Assembly (NCBI RefSeq): GCF_000092905.1
Contig: NC_014098.1
Span: 2,666,001-2,730,000, forward strand
DNA from: Kyrpidia tusciae DSM 2912
GTDB lineage: Bacteria > Bacillota > Bacilli > Kyrpidiales > Kyrpidiaceae
Direction: 5' to 3'
Length of the DNA stretch: 64,000 bases
The position numbers were made by a program, and so were the translations under genes. Shown piece by piece: positions 16,030 through 30,470 of this stretch; positions within the stretch are counted from its first letter, which is position 1; each line of letters opens with the position of its first letter. Below the pieces are notes generated by a model that searched no databases, was not told the DNA's origin, and worked only from the letters and a program-made list of their open reading frames with translations.

Positions 16030-16951
16030 AGCGCGGTCCGGGCGATGGCGCCCATTGAACCCGGTCCTGAGCGCGGCGGCGGGGTGGATTGCTGCGGCGG
16101 GGTTCATCGGGGGGATTGTTGTCGCCCAGCCCACCGTTCAAGCGGCCAACAACCCGGTGCACATCCGGGCCGAAGAGGTGGTGGCCGTCCCCGTCGGCAA
16201 CCAGTTGAAAGTGTTCGATTCCTTTACCCTTGATGCCCCGACCGGAACCCCGGTCACGCTCCATCTGCCCCGGGGACACAGCGACGTCCAAGTCGCCACG
16301 GATACTGTTGCGTCTTACATCAAGACCCCGGAGGGGGTCTCCTGGCCCGGTGGCCTGCCGGCAGGCGTTCAGTCTTTGGCGATCACCTATGCCCTGCCCT
16401 TTGACAACGGCAAGGGGGACATCGAATTTTCCCAGCCTTATAACGTTGATACTCTGTCTCTTCTCATCCCTCAAGGACGGGCGGCACTGATCGCCCAGGG
16501 GCTCTACCCCGTCACCCAGGTGGTGGACTTGCAAGGGATGAAGTTTCGCCGTTTCACAAAACCGGATCTTCCTGCCGGCGTCCCCTGGACCGCCAGCATT
16601 CAGGCCATCCCCCAGGCAGGGGAAGTCACCCCGGGAAGTATTGCGGTGCCGCCCGGTCTGCCGGTGATCGGAGCCGGCTACAAGTACACCGAATTTAAAG
16701 CACTGATCAATCTCTTGTTGGTGGTGTTTGTGGTCATCCTCGGGGTGGTCGGACTGCGCCGAAGACAGGAGCGTCTCACCGGCCGCCTTTCGGAAATGCA
16801 TCGTCAACTGGTGGACCAGTGGGCGAGTCTGGAAATCGACCGCAGGCGCGGGGCAGTGCCCGAGGAGGAGTACCGACGCAGGAGGGGAAATCTTTTACGC
16901 CGCCTCTTGGCCATCGAACGCCAGAAACGGAGCATGGGGCACAGTGATTGA
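15974..16951 (+). CDS. Unrecognised membrane-anchored protein in the ccm operon
   Basis: 325 residues from a TTG at 15974, chosen because AAAGGAGGG sits eight bases upstream. The N-terminus has a membrane segment (LSAAAGWIAAAGFIGGIVVA) followed by an extracytoplasmic domain of about 200 residues rich in beta-type sequence. A second helix (ALINLLLVVFVVILGVVGL) follows, then a basic cytoplasmic tail with coiled-coil character ending EEEYRRRRGNLLRRLLAIER. That tail resembles the charged segment of the CcmI-like protein before it. I do not recognise a family. Position between ccmI and ccmA suggests a role in apocytochrome or haem handling. It overlaps ccmA by 8 bp. Confidence 0.7.
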   Translation: MIDRWIPPLQILLRQRRPEARSGRWRPLNPVLSAAAGWIAAAGFIGGIVVAQPTVQAANNPVHIRAEEVVAVPVGNQLKVFDSFTLDAPTGTPVTLHLPRGHSDVQVATDTVASYIKTPEGVSWPGGLPAGVQSLAITYALPFDNGKGDIEFSQPYNVDTLSLLIPQGRAALIAQGLYPVTQVVDLQGMKFRRFTKPDLPAGVPWTASIQAIPQAGEVTPGSIAVPPGLPVIGAGYKYTEFKALINLLLVVFVVILGVVGLRRRQERLTGRLSEMHRQLVDQWASLEIDRRRGAVPEEEYRRRRGNLLRRLLAIERQKRSMGHSD

Positions 16952-17588
16952 ACTTCGTCGGGCTTCGATCATTCGTAACGGCCGCATCCTTTTGTATCCC
17001 GTCAACCTGACCCTTGAATCCGGCGTTCTGGCGACGGTGACAGGCCCGAACGGTGCGGGAAAAACGACGCTCCTTCGCCTGATGTCGGGACTTTGGCGTC
17101 CCAGCGAAGGGGAGGTCCTGTTGGACGGGGAGAGTCCTTCGGCTCGGCATCGGGGACAGATCGGGTTGGTTCTTCAGGAATCGATGTTGTACGGAGGACT
17201 CACCGTCCGGGAGAACCTCCGTTTTTTCGGACGCCTGTACCGGGTGAGCGATCTTGAGAATCGCATCCACGATTTGGCAAATGAACTTCGTTTTGAACGG
17301 CGATTGAATGATCCCGTGTCTGTCTTGTCAAAAGGATACACCCAACGGGTGACCCTGGCCCGGGCCCTTCTCCCCAAACCCCGGCTGCTCCTTTTGGACG
17401 AGCCCTTTGATGGCCTCGATCCGAGCGTGCGGGGATTGGTCAAGGAAGTATTGGCCCTCAGGGTAGCGGAAGGCGCCACGGCGGTGGTGGTCACCCATGA
17501 CCTGAAACTCACGCCCCACGCAGATGTCCAAATTCAGTTGAATCGGGGACGGGTGGCGGTCGTTTCTCCCGGGAACAAGGTTTCATGA
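16944..17588 (+). CDS. ccmA: Haem-exporter ABC ATPase CcmA
   Basis: A 214-residue ABC ATP-binding protein. The GTG at 16944 gives VIELRRASIIRNGRILLYPV. Walker A is GPNGAGKTT, the Q-loop is VLQESMLYGGLTV, the signature is degenerate (VLSKGYTQRVTLARALL in place of LSGGQ), Walker B is LLLLDEPFDGLD and the H-loop is VVVTHD. The size matches CcmA. With CcmB it powers release of haem-loaded CcmE from CcmC. It overlaps the preceding gene; about 150 bp separate it from ccmB, a gap in which I see nothing coding. Confidence 0.9.
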   Translation: MIELRRASIIRNGRILLYPVNLTLESGVLATVTGPNGAGKTTLLRLMSGLWRPSEGEVLLDGESPSARHRGQIGLVLQESMLYGGLTVRENLRFFGRLYRVSDLENRIHDLANELRFERRLNDPVSVLSKGYTQRVTLARALLPKPRLLLLDEPFDGLDPSVRGLVKEVLALRVAEGATAVVVTHDLKLTPHADVQIQLNRGRVAVVSPGNKVS

Positions 17589-17737
17589 GATCGAGGCCGA
17601 TGATCCGGGCTCTGCACCCGTGCTCATGGCCGGCACGCCGGATGCGGCGATTAAAGGCTTTTCCGACCTGGGAACTACCGTGAACCGCGTAGGTCAGGTC
17701 GGCCCCGGGGAAACGGATCGAAGGAGGCGGGACACCT

Positions 17738-18400
17738 TTGTGGACCGCAATTTGGGCCATTGTGAGAAAGGATGTCACCCTGGAGTACCGACGGAGGTGG
17801 CTGCTCGCCTCCGCGATTCTGTTCGGTTTTTTATTCGTGGTGGTCCTGGGCATTGCCTATAACGGCAAGCCCTTGCCCACAGACGCCGCGGCGGGAGCAC
17901 TTTGGATGGTCCTCCTGTTCTCCTGCGTCACCATCTTGCTGCGGACCAGCTCCTTCGAGGAAGAGCGCAAGTCCTGGTACGCCCTGCTCATGGCACCGGT
18001 GGACCGAAGTGCGATTTTTTATGGTAAGCTGGTGGCAAACACCTTGTTTCTATTTTTGGTCGAGCTGGCGGTAACGCCATCTTTTTGGCTCATCTTGGGC
18101 GTGCCCGCTCCGAACTCTTGGGTTCCGCTGCTGGCGGGGCTAGTGGCCGGAGCATTGGGCCTGGCGGCGGTGGGGACGTTTTTGCTTTTTCTGACATCCG
18201 CCAGCGAAGGGCGGGAGATCTTGTTCCCGGTCTCCATGATCCCGCTCACCATTCCCCTTCTTTTGGCGGTCACGCGACTGACCGCCGGGGCTTGGGGCGG
18301 AGGCGGCGATTTGTTCGTGTGGTACGCGATCGCCGGGGGATACTTGGTTTTGTTTGGGCTTTTACCCTGGTTGTTATTCGAGCTCCTGGTGGAGGTGTGA
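17738..18400 (+). CDS. ccmB: Haem-exporter membrane subunit CcmB
   Basis: A 220-residue protein with six predicted membrane helices and the CcmB pattern: an N-terminal WAIVRKDVTLEYRRRW, then FEEERKSWYALLMAPVDRSAI, FYGKLVANTLFLFLVEL and ILFPVSMIPLTIPLLLAVTR. The start is a TTG at 17738, after AAGGAGGCGG. It partners CcmA in the ABC complex of cytochrome c maturation. ccmC begins four bases after its stop. Confidence 0.92.
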   Translation: MWTAIWAIVRKDVTLEYRRRWLLASAILFGFLFVVVLGIAYNGKPLPTDAAAGALWMVLLFSCVTILLRTSSFEEERKSWYALLMAPVDRSAIFYGKLVANTLFLFLVELAVTPSFWLILGVPAPNSWVPLLAGLVAGALGLAAVGTFLLFLTSASEGREILFPVSMIPLTIPLLLAVTRLTAGAWGGGGDLFVWYAIAGGYLVLFGLLPWLLFELLVEV

Positions 18401-18403
18401 CGG

Positions 18404-19132
18404 GTGCGGGATAAAGGGCTCGCGGTTCTGACGGGAGTCGTGTTTCTTGCCGGACTGGCGGCGATTTACGCTGCTTTCATTTATGCGCCCCCGGAACGCT
18501 TCATGGGGGATTTGCAGCGATTGATGTATTTTCATATCGGCAGCGCCTGGGCGGCGATGCTGGCTTTTTTTATGGTATTCGTCTACGGGGTCGGGTATCT
18601 TTTCACCCGGCGGCCTTCTTTTGACCGAGTGGCACTGGCGTCGGCGGAAGTGGGGGTGTTTTTCACCACGTTGGTCCTCATCACCGGTCCGATTTGGGCC
18701 AGGCCGGTGTGGAACACGTGGTGGACCTGGGATCCGCGGTTGACCACGACCCTTATCCTATGGTTTATCTACATTGCTTATTTATTGCTCCGGAGCAGTA
18801 TCTCCGATGACACGAGGCGGCGAGTGGTGGCGTCCATTTTTGGTATCATCGGCTTTTTGGACGTCCCCATTGTGCACTTTTCGGTGACTTGGTGGCGTTC
18901 GATCCATCCCAACGTCATTACGGGCGGCACCATCAATATGGCCCCGGCGATGACCCAGGCCCTTATGGTGAACGGCGTCGCTTTCGTCCTGCTCTACGTT
19001 CTTCTGACATGGCTCCGGGCCCGGCTTGAGGCAGCCCGGGAAGAAGTGGCGCGGCTGCAGCACCGGGTGTATGAACGGGCGAGTGACCGAACGACGGAAG
19101 GGGATGGGGGTTCTGATGCCGACATCTCTTGA
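18404..19132 (+). CDS. ccmC: Haem-handling protein CcmC
   Basis: A 242-residue six-helix membrane protein of the HCP family that loads haem onto CcmE. The tryptophan-rich WWD loop is seen as GPIWARPVWNTWWTWDPRLT, with conserved His in MYFHIGSAWAAM and in VPIVHFSVTWWRSIHP. The C-terminal 40 residues are charged (EAAREEVARLQHRVYERASD) and longer than in proteobacterial CcmC. GTG start. The 134 bp to ccmD hold no obvious gene. Confidence 0.94.
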   Translation: MRDKGLAVLTGVVFLAGLAAIYAAFIYAPPERFMGDLQRLMYFHIGSAWAAMLAFFMVFVYGVGYLFTRRPSFDRVALASAEVGVFFTTLVLITGPIWARPVWNTWWTWDPRLTTTLILWFIYIAYLLLRSSISDDTRRRVVASIFGIIGFLDVPIVHFSVTWWRSIHPNVITGGTINMAPAMTQALMVNGVAFVLLYVLLTWLRARLEAAREEVARLQHRVYERASDRTTEGDGGSDADIS

Positions 19133-19266
19133 GGTCGTCCCGTCTTGGCGCCGTGAGCGCGGCGTGCCGCCTCGGAGATGACCAAGGTTTGCAAAGTGCT
19201 CTGCCTGACCGCCGCCCTTCGCCGGTGAGTCCGGAGTGAGGAGTCAGAGGAAAGGAGGAACTGCCC

Positions 19267-19410
19267 ATGTCCAACATGCAATATCTGTTTCTGGGGACGG
19301 CCGTGGTGTGGATCGGAACGTTGCTTTATGTCGTCTCGCTGATACGGCGCCAAAACCACACCCTGCGCATGATTGAGCAACTGCAAAAGAGTCTGGAGGA
19401 AGAAAGCTGA
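19267..19410 (+). CDS. ccmD: Small haem-exporter protein CcmD
   Basis: A 47-residue single-pass membrane protein, MSNMQYLFLGTAVVWIGTLL, then a basic stretch (SLIRRQNHTLRMI) and a charged helical tail. AAAGGAGG lies seven to ten bases upstream. Size, topology and position between ccmC and ccmG fit CcmD, which stabilises the CcmABCDE complex that releases holo-CcmE. The TGA overlaps the ATG of the next gene. Confidence 0.82.
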   Translation: MSNMQYLFLGTAVVWIGTLLYVVSLIRRQNHTLRMIEQLQKSLEEES

Positions 19411-19976
19411 TGAACGGAGCGGGCGAAGGATCTTCGGCGTCGAGTGGCCCCGGAGCGCCCACGCCACAGGCATTCAAATGGGCGCTGCTCATTCCGGTCG
19501 TCCTTCTCGGGGCCGCCTTGGCCTATGCGGCGTGGCATCTGGCCGGAGGCGGGGGCCCCAAGGCGGCGGTGGGACAATCGGCGCCTGAGCTGACCCTCAC
19601 GGATTTGGAAGGTCGCACCTTCCACCTGTCTGACTACCGGGGTCGGGTGGTGGTACTGAATTTTTTCACCTCCTGGTGCCCGCCATGTCAGCAGGAAGCC
19701 CCGGATCTCGCCCGTTTCGCGCAATCGGCAGGCCCGGGAACTGTCCTGGTCATGGTGGATCGGGGAGAAGCCGAGGGCCCGGTCCGCCGCTTCATCCAGC
19801 AATACGGCATCGACGCCCACGTCGTCATGGATCCGGACAACCGGGCCTCTCAAGCTTTTGGCGTCACCGGCCAACCGGAAACCTTCATTATCGATCGGCA
19901 AGGCATCATCCGACAACACGTCATCGGCCCCACCACCGCCACCGGGTTGGAGCAGATGACGGCGCCATGGGAATGA
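19410..19976 (+). CDS. ccmG: Membrane-anchored thioredoxin-like protein, CcmG/ResA type
   Basis: 188 residues: a disordered N-terminus, one membrane helix (about residues 23-44) and an extracytoplasmic TlpA-like thioredoxin domain. The active site is NFFTSWCPPCQQEAPDL with Cys90 and Cys93. The cis-Pro region is VTGQPETFIIDRQGII. It would reduce apocytochrome CxxCH cysteines before haem attachment. With CcmH lacking a normal CxxC, it may be the main reductant in this pathway. ATG overlaps the ccmD stop; last gene of the ccm operon. Confidence 0.9.
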   Translation: MNGAGEGSSASSGPGAPTPQAFKWALLIPVVLLGAALAYAAWHLAGGGGPKAAVGQSAPELTLTDLEGRTFHLSDYRGRVVVLNFFTSWCPPCQQEAPDLARFAQSAGPGTVLVMVDRGEAEGPVRRFIQQYGIDAHVVMDPDNRASQAFGVTGQPETFIIDRQGIIRQHVIGPTTATGLEQMTAPWE

Positions 19977-20241: not shown

Positions 20242-20297
20242 TTGTTATGCGTTTGTTAGGCTCTCGTCAGTCTTCTGTCAGGACTGAGGGCTAGAAT
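20242..20297 (+). promoter_or_regulatory. Four 11-bp-spaced direct repeats and -10 box upstream of the flavinylation operon
   Basis: Heptamers TTGTTAT (20242), TTGTTAG (20253), TCGTCAG (20264) and CTGTCAG (20275) start exactly 11 bp apart. They are followed by a -10-like TAGAAT at 20292-20297, with no good -35 box. This is the layout of OmpR/PhoB-type activator sites overlapping the -35 region. An OmpR-family regulator is encoded in the same operon (23153-23848), so autoregulation is likely. Confidence 0.65.
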
Positions 20298-20326
20298 GAG
20301 TAGCAGAAAGCAAGGAGGGATCGGAT

Positions 20327-21001
20327 GTGCAGAAAAACCGGTCATCCCAACGCGGCACCGCCCCGGCCGTCCTGGTGCTCGTATCGGCCACCGCCTGGAG
20401 TTTTCTGGCCGGCGCCTGGCTGGTTCTGAAACATCCGCAGTTGGCCGGGCAAATTGACTGGCTGATCGTCCGGGCCAGCGGCATCACCGCCTTTGCCCTG
20501 CTGACTGCCGTGGTGGGAATGGGACTGCTCATGGCGAATCCGAGGAATAAAACCCAGTGGCGTCTCGCCCCCAAGCTCATGCCGTGGCACCGTTCACTCG
20601 CCATGGTCACCCTGAGCTTTCTGCTCACTCATTTGACCATGCTTTTGCTCGACCACCAATCGGGGTTCGGCTGGCGCGAACTGTTCGTGCCGATGGCCTC
20701 GGGGTACCGGCCCATCCCCGTAGCCTTTGGAATCGGCTCCTTCTACCTGTTGATCATCACTTTGGTCACCGCCCACATGCCACGCCTCCTGCCAAAGGGC
20801 GGCTGGCTGCGAATCCACCGGATCGCCGCCGCCACCTGGGTGGCGGCCTGGTTCCACGGAATCCTCGCCGGTACCGATACACCGGCCATCGCCGGGCTGT
20901 ACCAGGTGAGCGGGTTTGTGCTCGTCGTCCTCTTGTTCTTGCGTTACTGGCTGGTGGCCGATTCCGCTCCGGCCGCACAGAAAAGGAGGAATGAATCGTG
21001 A
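20327..21001 (+). CDS. Ferric-reductase-like haem b transmembrane protein
   Basis: A 224-residue protein with about six membrane helices, from a GTG at 20327 following AAGGAGGG. Two helices carry His pairs spaced for bis-His haem b binding: PWHRSLAMVTLSFLLTHLTM and RIHRIAAATWVAAWFHGI. This is the ferric-reductase transmembrane fold (FRD/MsrQ/YedZ-like), which passes electrons across the membrane from quinol or another donor. No NAD(P)H or FAD-binding domain is attached, so an external partner is needed. The next two genes encode proteins with flavinylation motifs, likely acceptors. It overlaps the next gene at GTGA. Confidence 0.78.
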   Translation: MQKNRSSQRGTAPAVLVLVSATAWSFLAGAWLVLKHPQLAGQIDWLIVRASGITAFALLTAVVGMGLLMANPRNKTQWRLAPKLMPWHRSLAMVTLSFLLTHLTMLLLDHQSGFGWRELFVPMASGYRPIPVAFGIGSFYLLIITLVTAHMPRLLPKGGWLRIHRIAAATWVAAWFHGILAGTDTPAIAGLYQVSGFVLVVLLFLRYWLVADSAPAAQKRRNES

Positions 21002-21507
21002 ACAAGCACAATGTTATTGCCGTATTGAGCAGTGCGGTGCTTCTCGGCGGCGGTTGGTACGCCCTGCGCACCGCCCAGTCTATGGCCGACGCCCAGATAA
21101 ACGCCGCACAGCCCAGTGCAGCCCCTTCCGCAGCGGGGTCATCGGCCGGGCCCGCCCTCCAGTTCGACAGCACGGCACCGGGAGGAATTTCGGCTTCCAA
21201 TCCCGGGGGGCTTGATTCGAGCGGGTATAATCCCGGCGGAGCCACCGGGCCGGCCGTCACCCCGCCTCCGGTCACCGCTCCGCCGGTGGACACCGTCACC
21301 GGGGCATCGGGACACGGAACCCGCAACGTTATCACAACCGGAACTCTCACCAGTGCCGGGGCCGCCGGCAATCACGCCGCTGTCCAGACTCCCCCTGCCG
21401 TCCAAGGGCTGACAGGGGCATCGGGAAGCGAGTCTCATGAACACGGGGAGGAGCATGACGCCTATGAACACCGCGGATCCCACGAATCGGAGCGCGACGA
21501 TGACTGA
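20998..21507 (+). CDS. Membrane-anchored disordered protein with ApbE-type flavinylation motif
   Basis: 169 residues. One N-terminal membrane helix (about 6-22) is followed by a low-complexity extracytoplasmic chain rich in Ala, Gly, Pro and Ser. At Asp98-Ser104 it reads DTVTGAS, matching the D-x-x-[ST]-G-A-[ST] site where ApbE links FMN to Thr; the acceptor would be Thr101. A second near-match, QGLTGAS, is at 136-142. The last 25 residues are His/Glu/Asp-rich (ESHEHGEEHDAYEHRG) and could bind metal. No canonical FMN-binding domain is visible around the motif. It is translationally coupled to the haem protein before it and lies in one operon with apbE. Flavinylation is inferred from motif and neighbours. 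Confidence 0.75.
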   Translation: MNKHNVIAVLSSAVLLGGGWYALRTAQSMADAQINAAQPSAAPSAAGSSAGPALQFDSTAPGGISASNPGGLDSSGYNPGGATGPAVTPPPVTAPPVDTVTGASGHGTRNVITTGTLTSAGAAGNHAAVQTPPAVQGLTGASGSESHEHGEEHDAYEHRGSHESERDDD

Positions 21508-22111
21508 TCGGCGGGGACCTTCGACCCCGGACAAGAAGAGTACGGCCAACCCGGAAGGGGAAAAGCGACAAACTGAGCCACGACAAAGCGGCACACGCCC
21601 TGGCGGAGGGGGAAAGAACCGCCGGGACCGATCGGGGTTCATCGGCTTCGCTGCAGCCACTGCCTTTTTCACCGCCTTATTGGGCCGGATGGTCGCAGCG
21701 GGACCGGTGGCGGCCAACACTGACTGGAACGCCTCCGGTCAGGCGCCCTCCTCGGCAACGATTCACGCGGGCTTGGCCCCCGGGCAATCCGGACCGGGGG
21801 GAGCACCCTCAACCCCTGGCGCTTCTGGACCCGGTTCCGGCGAAACCAGGATAGACCCCGGGACTCTTCCCCCCGGCCCGGACGGATCCGCAAGCGCGCC
21901 AGGTTCTTCGGGAGCAGGCGATCCACCGGCGTCGGGGCGCTCCGGTGGAGACGGGAGCCGGAATGCCCCCGGTGACAACGGTCAGGGAAGCGATCCCGGT
22001 TTTGTGCCCGATTACGGTCCCTCCCAGGCTCCCCCCGGGTCCTTTGGGCCGCCTGCGTACGGCCCACCGGCAATGAGCCCACCCGTGGACGGTATCACGG
22101 GCGCCAGTTAA
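21500..22111 (+). CDS. Second disordered membrane protein ending in a flavinylation motif
   Basis: 203 residues from the ATG at 21500, which overlaps the previous gene by 8 bp. A charged N-terminus of about 45 residues leads to one membrane helix (FIGFAAATAFFTALLGRMVA), then about 130 residues of Gly/Pro/Ser-rich sequence with no predicted fold. The chain ends exactly with PPVDGITGAS, so a perfect D-G-I-T-G-A-S motif forms the last seven residues. The preceding protein has the parallel PPVDTVTGAS, so the two appear related in design. A long flexible tether with a terminal FMN would suit electron transfer from the membrane haem protein to an outside acceptor. No family was recognised. Confidence 0.72.
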   Translation: MTDRRGPSTPDKKSTANPEGEKRQTEPRQSGTRPGGGGKNRRDRSGFIGFAAATAFFTALLGRMVAAGPVAANTDWNASGQAPSSATIHAGLAPGQSGPGGAPSTPGASGPGSGETRIDPGTLPPGPDGSASAPGSSGAGDPPASGRSGGDGSRNAPGDNGQGSDPGFVPDYGPSQAPPGSFGPPAYGPPAMSPPVDGITGAS

Positions 22112-22133
22112 TCGCAGGAATGGAGGAGCGAGG

Positions 22134-23138
22134 ATGGCCATTTATGAACACGCCTTTCAATCCATGGCCTCGCCCATCCGCATCCGCCTCGATTTCCCGG
22201 GAAATCACCGACAGGAGGACGCTGAGGCCGCGACCGAAATTTGGGACATGGCAAAAGATGAGTTTGCTTCCGTGGTGAAAGCGCTGTCTCGGTTCGATCC
22301 GAACAGTGAACTTTCTCGACTCAACCAAAGTCCCGGGCAGTGGGTGGCCACCTCCCCCCTGCTTCGGGAAGCCTTGCAGAAGGCCCGAGAAGCCTACGAG
22401 TATACGGGCGGGGTCTTTGATCCCAGGATTTTGCGGTCTCTGGAGGCGTTGGGATACACAGGTGCGCCGGTGGTCCCCCTCTCAACCGGCGGGAGGGGGG
22501 ACGGCACGGACAGTATGCGGGGAGCCGCCGCCAGTTTTGATTCGGACGGGGACAAATTCCCTGAACCTTGGGCAGACCCCGCACCTTGGGTGGAATTTGA
22601 CGGCGATCGGGTCCGGATCGAGGCACCCCTGGACCTCGGTGGTCTCGGGAAAAGCCTGGCCGTGGATCGGGTGCGCAAGAGCATATTGAATCATCCGGCG
22701 GCCGGCCGGATGAAAGGGTTTCTGGTCAATGCCGGCGGCGATCTTTACGCATGGGGGACCAGGGAGGACGGGGAACATTGGCGGGTGGGAATCGAAGATC
22801 CCACCGCCCCCGCCACCATTTTGGCAGTCCTGGGTCTGCCTCTATCCACAGCCGTCTGTACGTCCTCCATCGCCCGGCGCCGCTGGATTCACCACGGCCG
22901 CCCGGTGCACCATCTGATCGACCCCGCCACGGGGCAACCGGCGGAGTCGCCCTATTTGAGCGTCACCTGCGCGTATCCGGACCCCATCACCGCAGAGATT
23001 ATCACAAAGGTCTTATTTATACGGCCTGCGCAATCCTTGCGCATCTGGCCTTGGCCCGAGTATATTTGGTGGGTGACGACGGATGTCCGGCTTCACGCCA
23101 CACCCTCTGGACAGCGGTGGGTCACCTGGAGCCGGTAA
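22134..23138 (+). CDS. apbE: FAD:protein FMN transferase ApbE
   Basis: 334 residues; ATG preceded by GGAGGAGCGAGG. ApbE uses FAD and Mg2+ to attach FMN through a phosphoester to Thr/Ser of target proteins outside the cytoplasm. Family motifs: LSRFDPNSELSRLNQ, GGVFDPRIL, APLDLGGLGKSLAVDRV, GFLVNAGGDLYAWG, HWRVGIEDP, HHLIDPATGQPAESPYLSVT and AYPDPITAEIITK. There is no clear signal peptide. An unusual 45-residue insertion (about 115-160, Asp/Gly-rich) precedes the FDGDRVRIEAP strand. Its likely clients are the products of the two genes immediately upstream. Confidence 0.92.
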   Translation: MAIYEHAFQSMASPIRIRLDFPGNHRQEDAEAATEIWDMAKDEFASVVKALSRFDPNSELSRLNQSPGQWVATSPLLREALQKAREAYEYTGGVFDPRILRSLEALGYTGAPVVPLSTGGRGDGTDSMRGAAASFDSDGDKFPEPWADPAPWVEFDGDRVRIEAPLDLGGLGKSLAVDRVRKSILNHPAAGRMKGFLVNAGGDLYAWGTREDGEHWRVGIEDPTAPATILAVLGLPLSTAVCTSSIARRRWIHHGRPVHHLIDPATGQPAESPYLSVTCAYPDPITAEIITKVLFIRPAQSLRIWPWPEYIWWVTTDVRLHATPSGQRWVTWSR

Positions 23139-23152
23139 AGGAGAGAGAGTCG

Positions 23153-23848
23153 TTGAAGATTCTTCTGGTGGAAGACGATCCGCGAATCGCCGGACTCGTG
23201 GTCAAAGGCCTTGAGCGGGAACACATGGCCACCGATCACGCACCGGACGCCCAAACCGCGCAATTGATGGTGGAGATGAATCCGTACGACCTGTTCATCA
23301 TCGACGTCGGGCTTCCCGGCTCTACGGACGGCTTTGCCTTGTGCGACATCCTCCGGCGAAGGGGATACGACGCACCCGTGTTATTTTTGACCGCCAGGGA
23401 CAGCTTGGCGGATAAACTGACGGGATTTGACCGGGGCGGAGACGATTACTTGGTCAAGCCTTTCGCTTTTGCCGAACTGGTGGCGCGCATTCGGGCGTTG
23501 CTCAAACGGGCCAATCGCCCCCTCCAGCCTGAACGGCTAACAGTGGGTGAATGGGAGCTGGATCCAAAAACCCACACCTTCTCCATCGCCGGCCAGGAGG
23601 TGGAGTTGACCAGCAAAGAATTTCAGTTGCTTGAACTTTTGATGCAATACCCCCGGTACACCTTGAGCAAGATCCAGATTTTAGAGCAGGTGTGGGGCTT
23701 TGCCCCGGACGCGGTCACCAATGTGGTGGAGGTCACCATCGGGCGCTTGCGGCAAAAAATTGAAGGGTTCTACCGGGACCGCGGCATGCATCCCGGCGTC
23801 GTCATTCAAACCGTGCGGGGCGTCGGCTATCGCCTGGTGGAACGATGA
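23153..23848 (+). CDS. OmpR-family response regulator
   Basis: 231 residues from a TTG at 23153, seven bases after AAAGGAGAGAG; this start begins the receiver domain correctly (LKILLVEDDPRIAGLVVKGL). The phosphoacceptor Asp lies in DLFIIDVGLPGSTDGF, the conserved Thr in VLFLTARD and Lys in DYLVKPFAF. The C-terminal winged helix includes LTSKEFQLLELLMQYPRYTL and VVIQTVRGVGYRLV. It overlaps the kinase gene (ATGA). The 11-bp-spaced repeats at 20242-20281 are its probable binding site. Confidence 0.93.
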   Translation: MKILLVEDDPRIAGLVVKGLEREHMATDHAPDAQTAQLMVEMNPYDLFIIDVGLPGSTDGFALCDILRRRGYDAPVLFLTARDSLADKLTGFDRGGDDYLVKPFAFAELVARIRALLKRANRPLQPERLTVGEWELDPKTHTFSIAGQEVELTSKEFQLLELLMQYPRYTLSKIQILEQVWGFAPDAVTNVVEVTIGRLRQKIEGFYRDRGMHPGVVIQTVRGVGYRLVER

Positions 23849-25179
23849 CCGGTTTCACTCCCCAACCAACCCGGCGAAAACTGCGACAAACCGGGATCCA
23901 AGCGTATCTCAAAACAACCCGCTGGCGACTGACCGCCAGTTATGTGGGGATTTTGTTGGTGGTGGAACTCATTATCGGCCTTTTTGCCGGGGTGCTCTTG
24001 CACCATCAGGTGGTTCGGGACGTGGAACACATCCTGCAAAGCCATCTGCCGAAAGAGGAAAACCATGAATGGAACGAAGATCACGAGCATAAACACAATA
24101 CAATACCGATGCAAACGATCGGAGACGACCGCCCGGCTTACGAAGTGGGCTACTACGTGGTGGCCGACAAGCGCTGGTACACGCCTTATACAAGCGGGGT
24201 GCTCCCCTATCAAGCGGGGGCGGACCGGGTTAGTGCGACGGGGAACCCGGAATTGCAACTGATCACAGCTTCAGACGGGACCCCCTTCTACGTGTACAGC
24301 ATGCCCACCTTTCACGACGGCACTCTGACTTCGATACGCCAATCGGCCATGGACGCCACCTTGCCTTTGGACGTCATGCGGCATTTTAACATGCTGCTGA
24401 CAACTTTTATCATTCTCGCTTCCGCCGCCGCCGTGATCGGTGGATACATTCTCGCCGGTCGGGCATTGCGCCCCATTGCCCAAATGGCCAAGCGACAGCA
24501 GTCTTTCACGGCGGACGCTTCCCACCAGTTGCGTACCCCGTTGACCGTGATCCGGACCACCGCGGAACTGGCCCTGGGCACCGACGATCCCGAGGAGTGG
24601 CGGGACGCGCTGGAGACCACTGTGGCGGAAACACATCATATGTCCCGCATGGTCGAATCCCTGGCCACCCTGGCGAGGATGGACTACGAGGAGGGAGCGG
24701 TGAAACGCAGCCCCTTCGCGGTTCGGGATTTGGTGGAGGAAGTGGCGGCGCATATCGAGCCCTTGGCCGGGGAAAAAGGGGTGGCTTTCCACGCCCCCGA
24801 GGCAGGCGAAGATCGTCTGGTCGGCGACCAACATCGCATCTGGCAACTTTTAACGGTCCTATTGGAAAATGCGATAAAATATACGCCGGAAGGTGGACAT
24901 GTGTATTTTTCCTACCGCCGAAATGGTCCGGAGGCCGTTTTCACCGTGCGGGATACGGGCATCGGCATCGCCCGGGAGGAGTTGCCCCATATCTTTGACC
25001 GGTTCTATCGGGGCTCTGTCGTTCAAAAAGAACGAATCCCAGGTTCGGGCCTCGGCCTCTCCATTGCCAAAGAGATCGCCGAGCTCCACGGGGGCACAAT
25101 CCATGTCGACAGCGAGGTCGGAGTGGGAACGACTTTCACGGTCAGCCTGCCGATCGCCGGGCAGAAGAAGTCTTCTTAG
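23845..25179 (+). CDS. Sensor histidine kinase
   Basis: 444 residues: a membrane helix near residues 34-54, an extracytoplasmic sensor region of about 130 residues, a second helix (FIILASAAAVIGGYILAG), a short HAMP-like linker, the H-box FTADASHQLRTPLTVI, N-box LLENAIKYTP, G1 DTGIGI, F-box FDRFYRG and G2 GSGLGLSIAKEIAELHGG. The sensor region begins with a His/Glu/Asp-rich stretch (HEWNEDHEHKHN), similar in character to the acidic His-rich tail of the 20998-21507 product; metal sensing is possible but unproven. Last gene of the operon. Confidence 0.93.
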   Translation: MTGFTPQPTRRKLRQTGIQAYLKTTRWRLTASYVGILLVVELIIGLFAGVLLHHQVVRDVEHILQSHLPKEENHEWNEDHEHKHNTIPMQTIGDDRPAYEVGYYVVADKRWYTPYTSGVLPYQAGADRVSATGNPELQLITASDGTPFYVYSMPTFHDGTLTSIRQSAMDATLPLDVMRHFNMLLTTFIILASAAAVIGGYILAGRALRPIAQMAKRQQSFTADASHQLRTPLTVIRTTAELALGTDDPEEWRDALETTVAETHHMSRMVESLATLARMDYEEGAVKRSPFAVRDLVEEVAAHIEPLAGEKGVAFHAPEAGEDRLVGDQHRIWQLLTVLLENAIKYTPEGGHVYFSYRRNGPEAVFTVRDTGIGIAREELPHIFDRFYRGSVVQKERIPGSGLGLSIAKEIAELHGGTIHVDSEVGVGTTFTVSLPIAGQKKSS

Positions 25180-27995: not shown

Positions 27996-30470
27996 TTAAG
28001 CAACCTTCACCCTTTTGAGCCTCAAGGCATTGAGCACCACGGATACCGAACTAAAAGCCATGGCGGCACCGGCCACCCACGGCGCGAGAAGTCCGGCTGC
28101 AGCCACCGGAATCCCCACCGAATTGTAGGCAAGGGCCCAGAACAGGTTTTGGCGGATGTTGCGCATCGTTTTCCGGCTCAATTCCACGGCCCGGGCCACA
28201 CCCGTGACATCGCCGCCTACCAGGGTAATGTCCGCCGTCTCGATGGCCACATCGGTCCCCGTGCCCATGGCAATGCCGATATCCGCGGCCGCCAGGGCCG
28301 GCGCGTCATTGATCCCGTCCCCCACCATGGCAACGACCTTACCCCGATCGCGCAGCGCCTTCACCCGGTCCGCTTTACCTTGTGGGAGGACCTCCGCCCA
28401 GACTTCGTCGATCCCCACCTGCCGGGCCACGGCTTCGGCCGTCCGCCGGTTGTCCCCGGTAGCCATGACCACCTGGATGCCAAGATCTTTCAGTCGGCGA
28501 ACCGCTTCGGCCGCCTTTTCCTTGACAGTATCCGCCACGGCGAGCACACCGGCAACTTTTCCATCGATACCGACAAACATCGCCGTTTTTCCAAGCCCCT
28601 CCAACTCCTGGGCGGCACCTTCCACCGCCGAGATCTCAATCCCTTCCTGGCGGAGAAGCGCCCGGGTGCCGACCAGGACCTTATGCCCCGCAACGACCGC
28701 CCGAACCCCGTATCCCGGAATCGCCTCAAAAGAGTCCGCCGACTCAGTGGTCATGCCGCGTTCCATCGCGCCCCGCACAATCGCCTGGGCCAAGGGATGT
28801 TCCGACGGCCCCTCCGCGGAGGCCGCCAATCGCAACAGCTCCCCTTCGTCTCCGTTCTTGACCACGATATCGGTCAGAGCCGGTTTGCCGGTGGTCAGTG
28901 TCCCCGTCTTATCGAGAATCACCGCGTTGATTTTCTGGGCCCGCTCCAAATGTTCCCCGCCTCGGAACAGGATCCCCAACTCTGCCGCCTTCCCGGTCCC
29001 GACCATGATCGACGTGGGCGTCGCGAGGCCCAGGGCGCACGGGCAGGCAATCACCAACACCGCAATCCCGTTCTCCAAAGCCCGGGTAAAGTTCCCCGGA
29101 TCAATCAGCCAGAACCATAAAAGAAAGACAACCACGGCAATGCCGACCACCACAGGAACAAAAATCGCCGAGACTGTATCGGCGATCCGCTGGATTGGCG
29201 CCTTCGTCCCTTGAGCCTCTTCCACGGCCCGGACGATCTGGGCGAGGGCGGTTTCTTTCCCCACCTTCACAGCCTCGATCAACAACGTGCCGTTCCCGTT
29301 GACCGTCGCCCCGATCACCGCGTCGCCCGGCTTCTTATCCACCGGTACACTCTCCCCGGTCAGCATCGATTCATCGACCGTGGACAGTCCTTCCAGCACC
29401 CGTCCGTCCACCGGGATCTTTTCCCCGGGGCGCACCCGCAGCCAATCACCGGGAATCACCGCGTCCACCGGCACCTGTTCTTCCCGGCCATTCCGAACCC
29501 GGGTCGCCGTCTTTGCCTGCATGCCCATCAAATGGCGGATCGCTTCCGATGTCCGGCCTTTCGCCGCTGACTCCAGCCACTTGCCTACGAGGATCAGCGT
29601 GATCAAGACAGCGCTGGTTTCATAATACAGGGCGGGAGAATGACCCGTCGACCCGGCGGCCACCCAGCGCAACGTCCCCCACAGGCTGTAAAAATATGCT
29701 GCCGATGTACCCAGGGCCACGAGGACGTCCATATTGGCGCTTCCGTTGCGCAACGACTTGTACGCTCCGCGATAAAAAACCCATCCGATCAAAAATTGCA
29801 CCGGCGTTGCCAAAGCAAATTGAAACCAGGGGTTCATGAGCAGCCCGGGCACCGGAATACCGTGCAACCCCGGGATATGCCCCACCATCGTGTAGAGAAG
29901 GGGCAACGACAACAAGGTGGAGATCAGAAGACGATTGCGCTTCTCCACCGACTCTTTGCGGCGAAAATCATCCACCGCTGTGCCCTCTTCCTCGTGCACC
30001 TTGGCGTCGTAGCCAAGGTCCCGAACCGTTTTTACGATATCGTCGATTTCGACGGCCCCCGGGTAATAGGTCAGCGCCGCTCGCTCCAAGGCGTAGTTCA
30101 CCGTCGCCTCCACACCGGGAAGTTTGTTCAATCCCTTCTCAATGCGATTGGCGCAGGCCGCACACGTCATACCCGACAGATCTAGCTCCAAGCGCTGTTT
30201 GGCCACGTTGTACCCGAGGCTTCTGACTTTGTCCTCTATATCTTTCACCGACACCTGCCGCGGATCGAACTCCACCGTGGCCTTTTCCAGGGCGAGGTTG
30301 ACAAATGCCTCCTCGATGCCCGGCAGTTTATTCAGCCCCTTTTCAATCCGATTGGCACAGGCCGCACAGGTCATCCCCTGAATGGCCAGAGTCACCTTCG
30401 CGCGATCGGGCCGGCGCCCCTCCGCGGAGCCCGATGCCGCGTGTTCCTTTATCTCTGTGGCCACGGCCAC
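27996..30470 (-). CDS. copA: Copper-exporting P-type ATPase
   Basis: 824 residues; GTG start after AAGGAGGCGA. Two N-terminal heavy-metal-associated domains each contain [20 protein letters not shown], a near-exact internal repeat. Eight membrane helices follow, with the CPC metal site in [17 protein letters not shown], the TGES loop [17 protein letters not shown], the phosphorylation site [15 protein letters not shown], the [10 protein letters not shown] nucleotide-binding His-Pro and [21 protein letters not shown] helix 7-8 pattern [17 protein letters not shown] and [15 protein letters not shown] indicates Cu(I) specificity. It stands alone; no csoR or copZ is adjacent. Confidence 0.96.

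Follow-up and report, generated by a model that had tools for sequence, protein, structure and literature searches.

A candidate flavin-tether operon of Kyrpidia tusciae with ApbE acceptor motifs on domain-free tails

In the motif D-x-x-[ST]-G-A-[ST] the residue that receives flavin mononucleotide (FMN) from ApbE is the last Ser/Thr (PMC12052999), and a bare seven-residue motif at the C-terminus is sufficient as a substrate of V. cholerae ApbE (PMC12052999, PMC10722498). In the MsrQ-like flavinylation systems (PMC8238504) apbE is clustered with the genes of a PF01794-type six-helix bis-haem protein and of a membrane-anchored exported partner. To this arrangement we compare an operon found in a window of 64,000 nucleotides from the chromosome of the hydrogen-oxidising bacterium Kyrpidia tusciae DSM 2912 (NC_014098.1, positions 2,666,001 to 2,730,000; all coordinates below are those of this window). 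It combines apbE with a ferric-reductase-like membrane protein scoring just below the PF01794 cut-off and with membrane-anchored, probably exported partners, but contains no FMN-binding-domain gene, no nicotinamide adenine dinucleotide (NAD) domain and no ApbE signal peptide, and we think it likely that it encodes a stand-alone flavin-tether electron-transfer module. Its two small single-helix proteins with disordered tails, here called tail1 and tail2, probably represent a domain-free class of ApbE substrate, a natural 'flavin tag' serving the haem protein.

FMN_bind proteins (NqrC, RnfG, PceC) share with the tails the acceptor motif, the membrane anchor and the expected dependence on ApbE, but the tails have neither a folded domain nor a counterpart of K207 of NqrC, and the motif is found at the C-terminus. 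In those FMN_red proteins that have flavinylation motifs (Huang et al. 2024, PMC11334425) the motif is likewise located in an unstructured C-terminal stretch; their flavin, however, docks in a folded, flavodoxin-like core that belongs to the same polypeptide, and the Kyrpidia tails have no such core. A terminal motif of seven residues is also enough for ApbE in the flavin-tag (Tong et al. 2021, reviewed in PMC12052999), which is man-made, whereas the tails would be a natural and conserved version with a relaxed motif and an ApbE subtype of their own. The survey of Meheust et al. 2021 counted only clusters in which ApbE, FMN_bind, DUF2271 or DUF3570 had a signal peptide or lipid site (PMC8238504), so that clusters of the Kyrpidia type would escape it, and our literature search found no paper describing a domain-free tail/ApbE/haem-protein arrangement.

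The six co-directional genes form a tight operon at 20327-25179 on the + strand, in the order ferric-reductase-like gene (P0001), tail1, tail2 (P0003), ApbE (P0004), OmpR-type regulator and histidine kinase, with junctions that are either overlaps of 4-8 nucleotides or gaps of 14-22 nucleotides. A first-pass annotation of this DNA, made from the sequence alone, had already described one operon of a membrane protein, two tail proteins, ApbE and an OmpR/kinase pair, and this description holds; its end at 25179 is correct, but the operon starts at about 20327 and not at 20242. Tail2 starts with an ATG overlapping the stop of tail1, a longer open reading frame from 21437 being unlikely. A scan for promoters and terminators gave nothing above shuffled sequence. 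The features are as follows.

20327..21001, +: MsrQ/ferric-reductase-like six-helix membrane protein (P0001) with His 88/102/164/177; GTG start; PF01794 (Ferric_reduct) 27 bits against a cut-off of 28, E 4.9e-6
20998..21507, +: tail1, 169 amino acids, single helix and disordered tail with an acidic/His-rich end; no Pfam or NCBIfam domain
21289..21309, +: motif DTVTGAS in tail1, residues 98-104; predicted FMN site Ser104 (acceptor position according to PMC12052999)
21403..21423, +: motif QGLTGAS in tail1, residues 136-142; possible FMN site Ser142 (compare the paired sites of the sister genus)
21424..21504, +: His/Asp/Glu-rich C-terminus of tail1 (ESHEHGEEHDAYEHRGSHESERDDD), like the ends of Acidimicrobiia tail1-like proteins
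21500..22111, +: tail2, 203 amino acids, single helix followed by a Gly/Pro/Ser tail with the acceptor motif at its end
22088..22108, +: motif DGITGAS, the last seven residues of tail2 (197-203); predicted FMN site Ser203
22134..23138, +: ApbE (P0004), putative FAD:protein FMN transferase (FAD, flavin adenine dinucleotide) without signal peptide; PF02424 158.9 bits against a cut-off of 25.6, E 2.4e-46
23153..23848, +: OmpR-type response regulator (Pfam match)
23845..25179, +: sensor histidine kinase with a His/Glu-rich extracytoplasmic stretch (Pfam match)

The motifs DTVTGAS and DGITGAS had been recognized before at exactly these positions, with the latter also being an exact fit to the narrower motif D-[GAIQ]-[IALVF]-[ST]-G-A-[ST] (PMC10722498), but the second site of tail1, QGLTGAS, had been overlooked. 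As the FMN goes onto the last Ser/Thr of the motif (PMC12052999), the predicted sites are Ser104 and possibly Ser142 of tail1 and Ser203 of tail2, and the earlier assignment to Thr101 and a 'penultimate Thr' was wrong. Thus, the earlier idea of minimal flavin tethers beside a haem protein stands with respect to the domain-free acceptor motifs and the conserved operon, but not for the acceptor residue that it named. In composition-preserving shuffles the full D-x-x-[ST]-G-A-[ST] motif appeared in 0.8% of cases for the tail of tail1 and in 1.0% for the tail of tail2. Its frequency at the exact C-terminus of tail2 was 0.01%, and joint occurrence in tail1 and at this C-terminus was seen in 0 of 200,000. 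Together with the layout and register conserved across genera (see below) this rejects the motif as a chance product of Gly/Pro/Ser sequence.

Profile searches of tail1 and tail2 gave no match to Pfam domains and none to NCBIfam. The FMN_bind profile PF04205 had no match anywhere in the K. tusciae genome at E<=10, and it is also absent from the genomes of three relatives and from all 34 tail relatives searched. An AlphaFold2 (AF2) model of tail1 shows a single helix (residues 3-36) and an unstructured remainder at a mean predicted local distance difference test (pLDDT) of 52, which carries little weight for the absence of a domain, the protein being of low complexity and modelled from its single sequence. 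A hidden FMN_bind domain in the tails was rejected on these two grounds, in agreement with the first-pass annotation. P0004 is the sole ApbE in the K. tusciae genome. A DNA-pattern scan for the motif yielded 36 in-frame-possible matches, and those outside the operon fall into cytosolic-type proteins, spurious frames or a Ser/Gly-rich stretch; further ApbE substrates in this genome were rejected, as none of these matches is convincing.

The layout is conserved in related genomes. Kyrpidia EA-1 has the same operon with all motifs retained. In the sister genus (G001) tail2 is missing and a single tail1-like protein carries PPVQAVTGAS and PPVQSITGAS, internal sites that are the sole acceptor candidates in the operon. 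The D of the motif, replaced by Q in these sites, thus appears not to be essential; its loss had little effect in one tested substrate (PMC12052999), whereas it was called essential for V. cholerae ApbE (PMC10722498). We then searched 300 genomes of the class Bacilli, among which 132 contain relatives of P0004 at E<=1e-25 and 54 contain PF04205, and retrieved 80 ApbE loci for a comparison of their neighbourhoods. The ferric-reductase gene has a relative next to apbE in 62 of these loci, and 60 of the 62 encode a short single-helix protein with a low-hydrophobicity tail, normally immediately upstream of apbE. ApbE without FMN_bind is found in 79 of the Bacilli genomes, and 48 of the 52 examined possess a tail protein. 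An ordinary cluster of MsrQ and FMN_bind was rejected as an explanation, as the FMN_bind-type loci in the same Bacilli genomes are separate, have no such ferric-reductase gene beside ApbE and contain an ApbE of a different clade.

For a comparison of the tail ends each genus was represented by a single locus (32 genera from 18 families); eight of the 60 tails, either missed by the automatic filter or found with two candidates, had been chosen by their C-terminus, and all counts were also made with these eight left out. Ser is the last residue in 29 genera and Thr in one (random 7-mers of the same tails: 4.3 Ser), position -4 is [ST] in 31 (7.0), position -2 is A/G in 22 (5.7) and position -7 is D in 10 (2.8), and without the hand-picked tails the respective numbers are 24, 25, 19 and 8 of 26 genera. 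The conserved tail end therefore has the ApbE motif register with the Gly alone relaxed (terminal TRAS, THAS, TSAS), and an exact terminal TGAS is found in Kyrpidia and in one distant genus (YQSRTGAS, 8 loci). In a blind alignment of 34 tails, Ser203 of tail2 is the only nearly invariant column at a mean column identity of 11%. These comparisons point to the C-terminal Ser of the tail2-type protein as the general family element and to internal tail1 motifs as specific for Kyrpidiaceae.

Several individual tails deserve mention. The tail at L132:3243-3965 (G128) contains DUF2271, a known ApbE-substrate domain, yet ends in TTSSQGS and is possibly an intermediate between domain-containing and domain-free forms. 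Outside its own family, the Kyrpidia ApbE has its nearest relative in G289, and beside this gene (L110:3602-4469) two tail-like proteins, hydrophilic over a long middle part, end in VQSVTRAS...GGGGHDD and VQATTKASGA. In several Bacillus-like families genes of PF07833 'copper amine oxidase N-terminal' stalk proteins lie directly 5' of the tail gene (L138, L140, L162, L116), and the protein at L138 has an acidic/His-rich start.

The arrangement is also found in a second phylum, as relatives of P0001 in Acidimicrobiia (Actinomycetota) adjoin ApbE and commonly two tail proteins. The tail1-like protein ends in a D/H-rich stretch (DDHHDEYEGGDDDD) resembling the end of tail1, and only this acidic/His end and no internal TGAS site was seen in these proteins; the second tail ends in TGGS, SGGS, RGSR, SSGS or similar. 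Judged by this likeness the two-tail layout of Kyrpidia resembles the Acidimicrobiia form. One Acidimicrobiia locus has the haem gene next to a tail ending in TRAS, and the stretch yielded no ApbE. Some genomes with the tail-type system (L172-L175; G300, G302, G303) contain a further locus of the FMN_bind type, in which a separate ferric-reductase-like gene accompanies a Thr-type ApbE. The FMN_bind and tail proteins of Acidimicrobiia have a weakly similar segment before the helix (KRRHPA), and with respect to a possible loss of the domain the N-terminal similarity between their tail2 and an FMN_bind protein gave an E of only about 0.003 in a tiny database.

These data also bear on the possibility that the tails are structural or anchoring subunits, the terminal Ser motif being a docking or sorting signal and ApbE modifying another protein. 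The low complexity and strong divergence of the tails and the Acidimicrobiia tail1-like proteins lacking an acceptor motif would fit such a role, and the flavinylation proposed here is read from sequence. We nevertheless regard this structural role as unlikely, because the register of the tails agrees with the ApbE motif at four positions, the haem protein has no TGAS-like site and no other extracytosolic protein with a convincing motif next to ApbE is found in the genome.

In P0001 six helices are predicted, and its four His of the haem-ligand type (88, 102, 164, 177) are invariant in 60 of 60 relatives. The homologue from the sister genus reaches 39.1 bits with PF01794, and the AF2 model (mean pLDDT 70) gave STEAP2 and SpNOX as best relevant PDB matches, which are weak and none at E<=0.001. 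As P0001 has no NAD domain, a quinol is the likely electron donor. Two-component genes and PF07833 stalk proteins predominate among the neighbours of the module, and no specific electron acceptor emerged. Response regulator and kinase are adjacent in Kyrpidia and in roughly one third of the relatives' neighbourhoods, and both tail1 and the kinase have His/acid-rich stretches, which raises the possibility that the tails carry FMN as a redox or metal sensor for the kinase and not as an electron relay. As many relatives have no adjacent two-component system while haem protein, ApbE and tail stay together, we find such a sensor quite improbable. The His/Glu/Asp-rich stretches themselves (kinase residues about 68-86 and the tail1 end, 21424-21504) suggest metal binding or sensing.

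P0004 matches solved ApbE structures and, like the tail-type ApbEs in general, keeps the catalytic His (His260), DxGGxGK and GGD in the alignment columns. Towards the C-terminus of the catalytic domain, ApbE enzymes have an Asp/Thr pair, at the positions of residues 288 and 292 of P0004, which we take to be metal ligands. This pair is absent in P0004, with Glu288 and Lys292 instead. Lys is found at this position in 65 of 66 tail-type ApbEs, with Glu288 usually replacing Asp, whereas Thr is present in 12 of 12 FMN_bind-type or secreted ApbEs of Bacilli and, as read from the alignment, in 4 of 4 FMN_bind-type ApbEs of Acidimicrobiia, so that the difference extends over two phyla. The FMN_bind-type and secreted enzymes form a separate branch in the ApbE tree (98*), and the alignment argues for an ApbE subtype specific to tail loci. 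NqrC, a folded substrate, requires a lysine of its own (K207) beside the acceptor Thr (PMC4767422). Domain-free tails lack this residue, and by analogy Lys292 of the enzyme might therefore stand in for the lysine supplied by folded substrates. That the Lys-type ApbE modifies the terminal Ser not with FMN but, for example, with adenosine monophosphate or another nucleotide, its chemistry being changed by Lys in place of a probable metal ligand, would fit the near-constant Lys292/Glu288 of tail-type enzymes, but it is very unlikely given the retained His260, DxGGxGK and GGD, the exact canonical TGAS sites in Kyrpidia and a redox haem partner for which a redox cofactor is the natural cargo.

The tails very probably lie outside the membrane in an N-in/C-out topology, as the net charge of the 15 residues before the helix is more positive than that of the residues after it in 32 of 32 tails, and four tails of family f7 (L093, L100, L104, L159) have the peptidoglycan-binding domain PG_binding_1 between helix and terminal motif. 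In these four the predicted flavin site would therefore be in the cell wall. Tail-type ApbEs have no signal peptides, unlike the secreted ApbE clade, and cytosolic ApbEs are known from the literature. In the 'extracellular' relay of the first-pass annotation, a loading step outside the cell is complicated by the missing signal peptide of ApbE, which that annotation had overlooked. Export after loading of the unfolded C-terminus would be the simplest way to reconcile the two locations, and a disordered tail with a terminal site would be well suited to it.

In the stand-alone electron-transfer module that we favor, the six-helix, presumably bis-haem protein would most likely draw electrons from the menaquinol pool and deliver them on the outer side of the membrane, with the small single-helix proteins as its redox partners. 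P0004 would transfer FMN from FAD onto Ser203 of tail2 and Ser104, perhaps also Ser142, of tail1, probably in the cytosol and ahead of export, and the helix-anchored disordered tail could then act as a flexible flavin leash reaching the haem protein and also acceptors located within or beyond the wall. Expression of the operon may be controlled by the two-component pair. The flavinylation itself, the direction of the electrons, their final acceptor and the 'swinging' of the tails are what we infer. More tentatively, and with rather less confidence, one may think of a system widespread in Bacillota and Actinomycetota, in which a Lys-type ApbE without signal peptide loads the C-terminal Ser in the cytosol and the tail is then exported as a wall-spanning leash, replacing the folded flavodomains and multihaem cytochromes in Gram-positives, with the new Lys possibly replacing the substrate lysine.

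Some observations speak against flavin-loaded tails. Every candidate site in Kyrpidia is a Ser, which is a poorer ApbE acceptor than Thr (PMC12052999), and the Gly of the motif is replaced (R/H/S) in most relatives; an exchange of Gly to Ala alone costs about half of the flavinylation in one tested substrate (PMC12052999). Some relatives have extra residues past the terminal Ser (SHSK, GSR, GSKCP at the end). ApbE looks cytosolic whereas the tails look exported, and with Lys in place of the supposed metal-ligand Thr the chemistry of this ApbE subtype may differ. Moreover, the Lys/Thr split follows the ApbE tree, so that shared descent could explain it and it need not be causal.

If the tails are indeed flavinylated, they would supply a substrate for orphan ApbEs such as those of the 48 Bacilli genomes above; in the 2021 survey about 4% of the flavinylation-positive genomes had ApbE without a known substrate (PMC8238504). 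Covalent flavin would then need no folded carrier and modified protein C-termini could act as redox centres, giving Gram-positives a cytochrome-poor electron route through the wall. Kyrpidia EA-1 (K. spormannii) is a cathode-growing electroautotroph whose path of electron uptake is unexplained, and the operon is present there and in genera that are maybe easier to manipulate genetically. In the part of the published record available to us, the locus of the tail operon is not among the listed cathode-adaptation mutations of K. spormannii EA-1.

Two neighbouring regions of the window are of additional interest. Just upstream of the operon (16728-19976) open reading frames read like a putative cytochrome c biogenesis cluster with an ABC ATPase, CcmB-like, CcmC-like and thioredoxin-like ResA proteins, and downstream (27996-30470, - strand) a copper-type P1B ATPase with two N-terminal CxxC metal-binding repeats is encoded.

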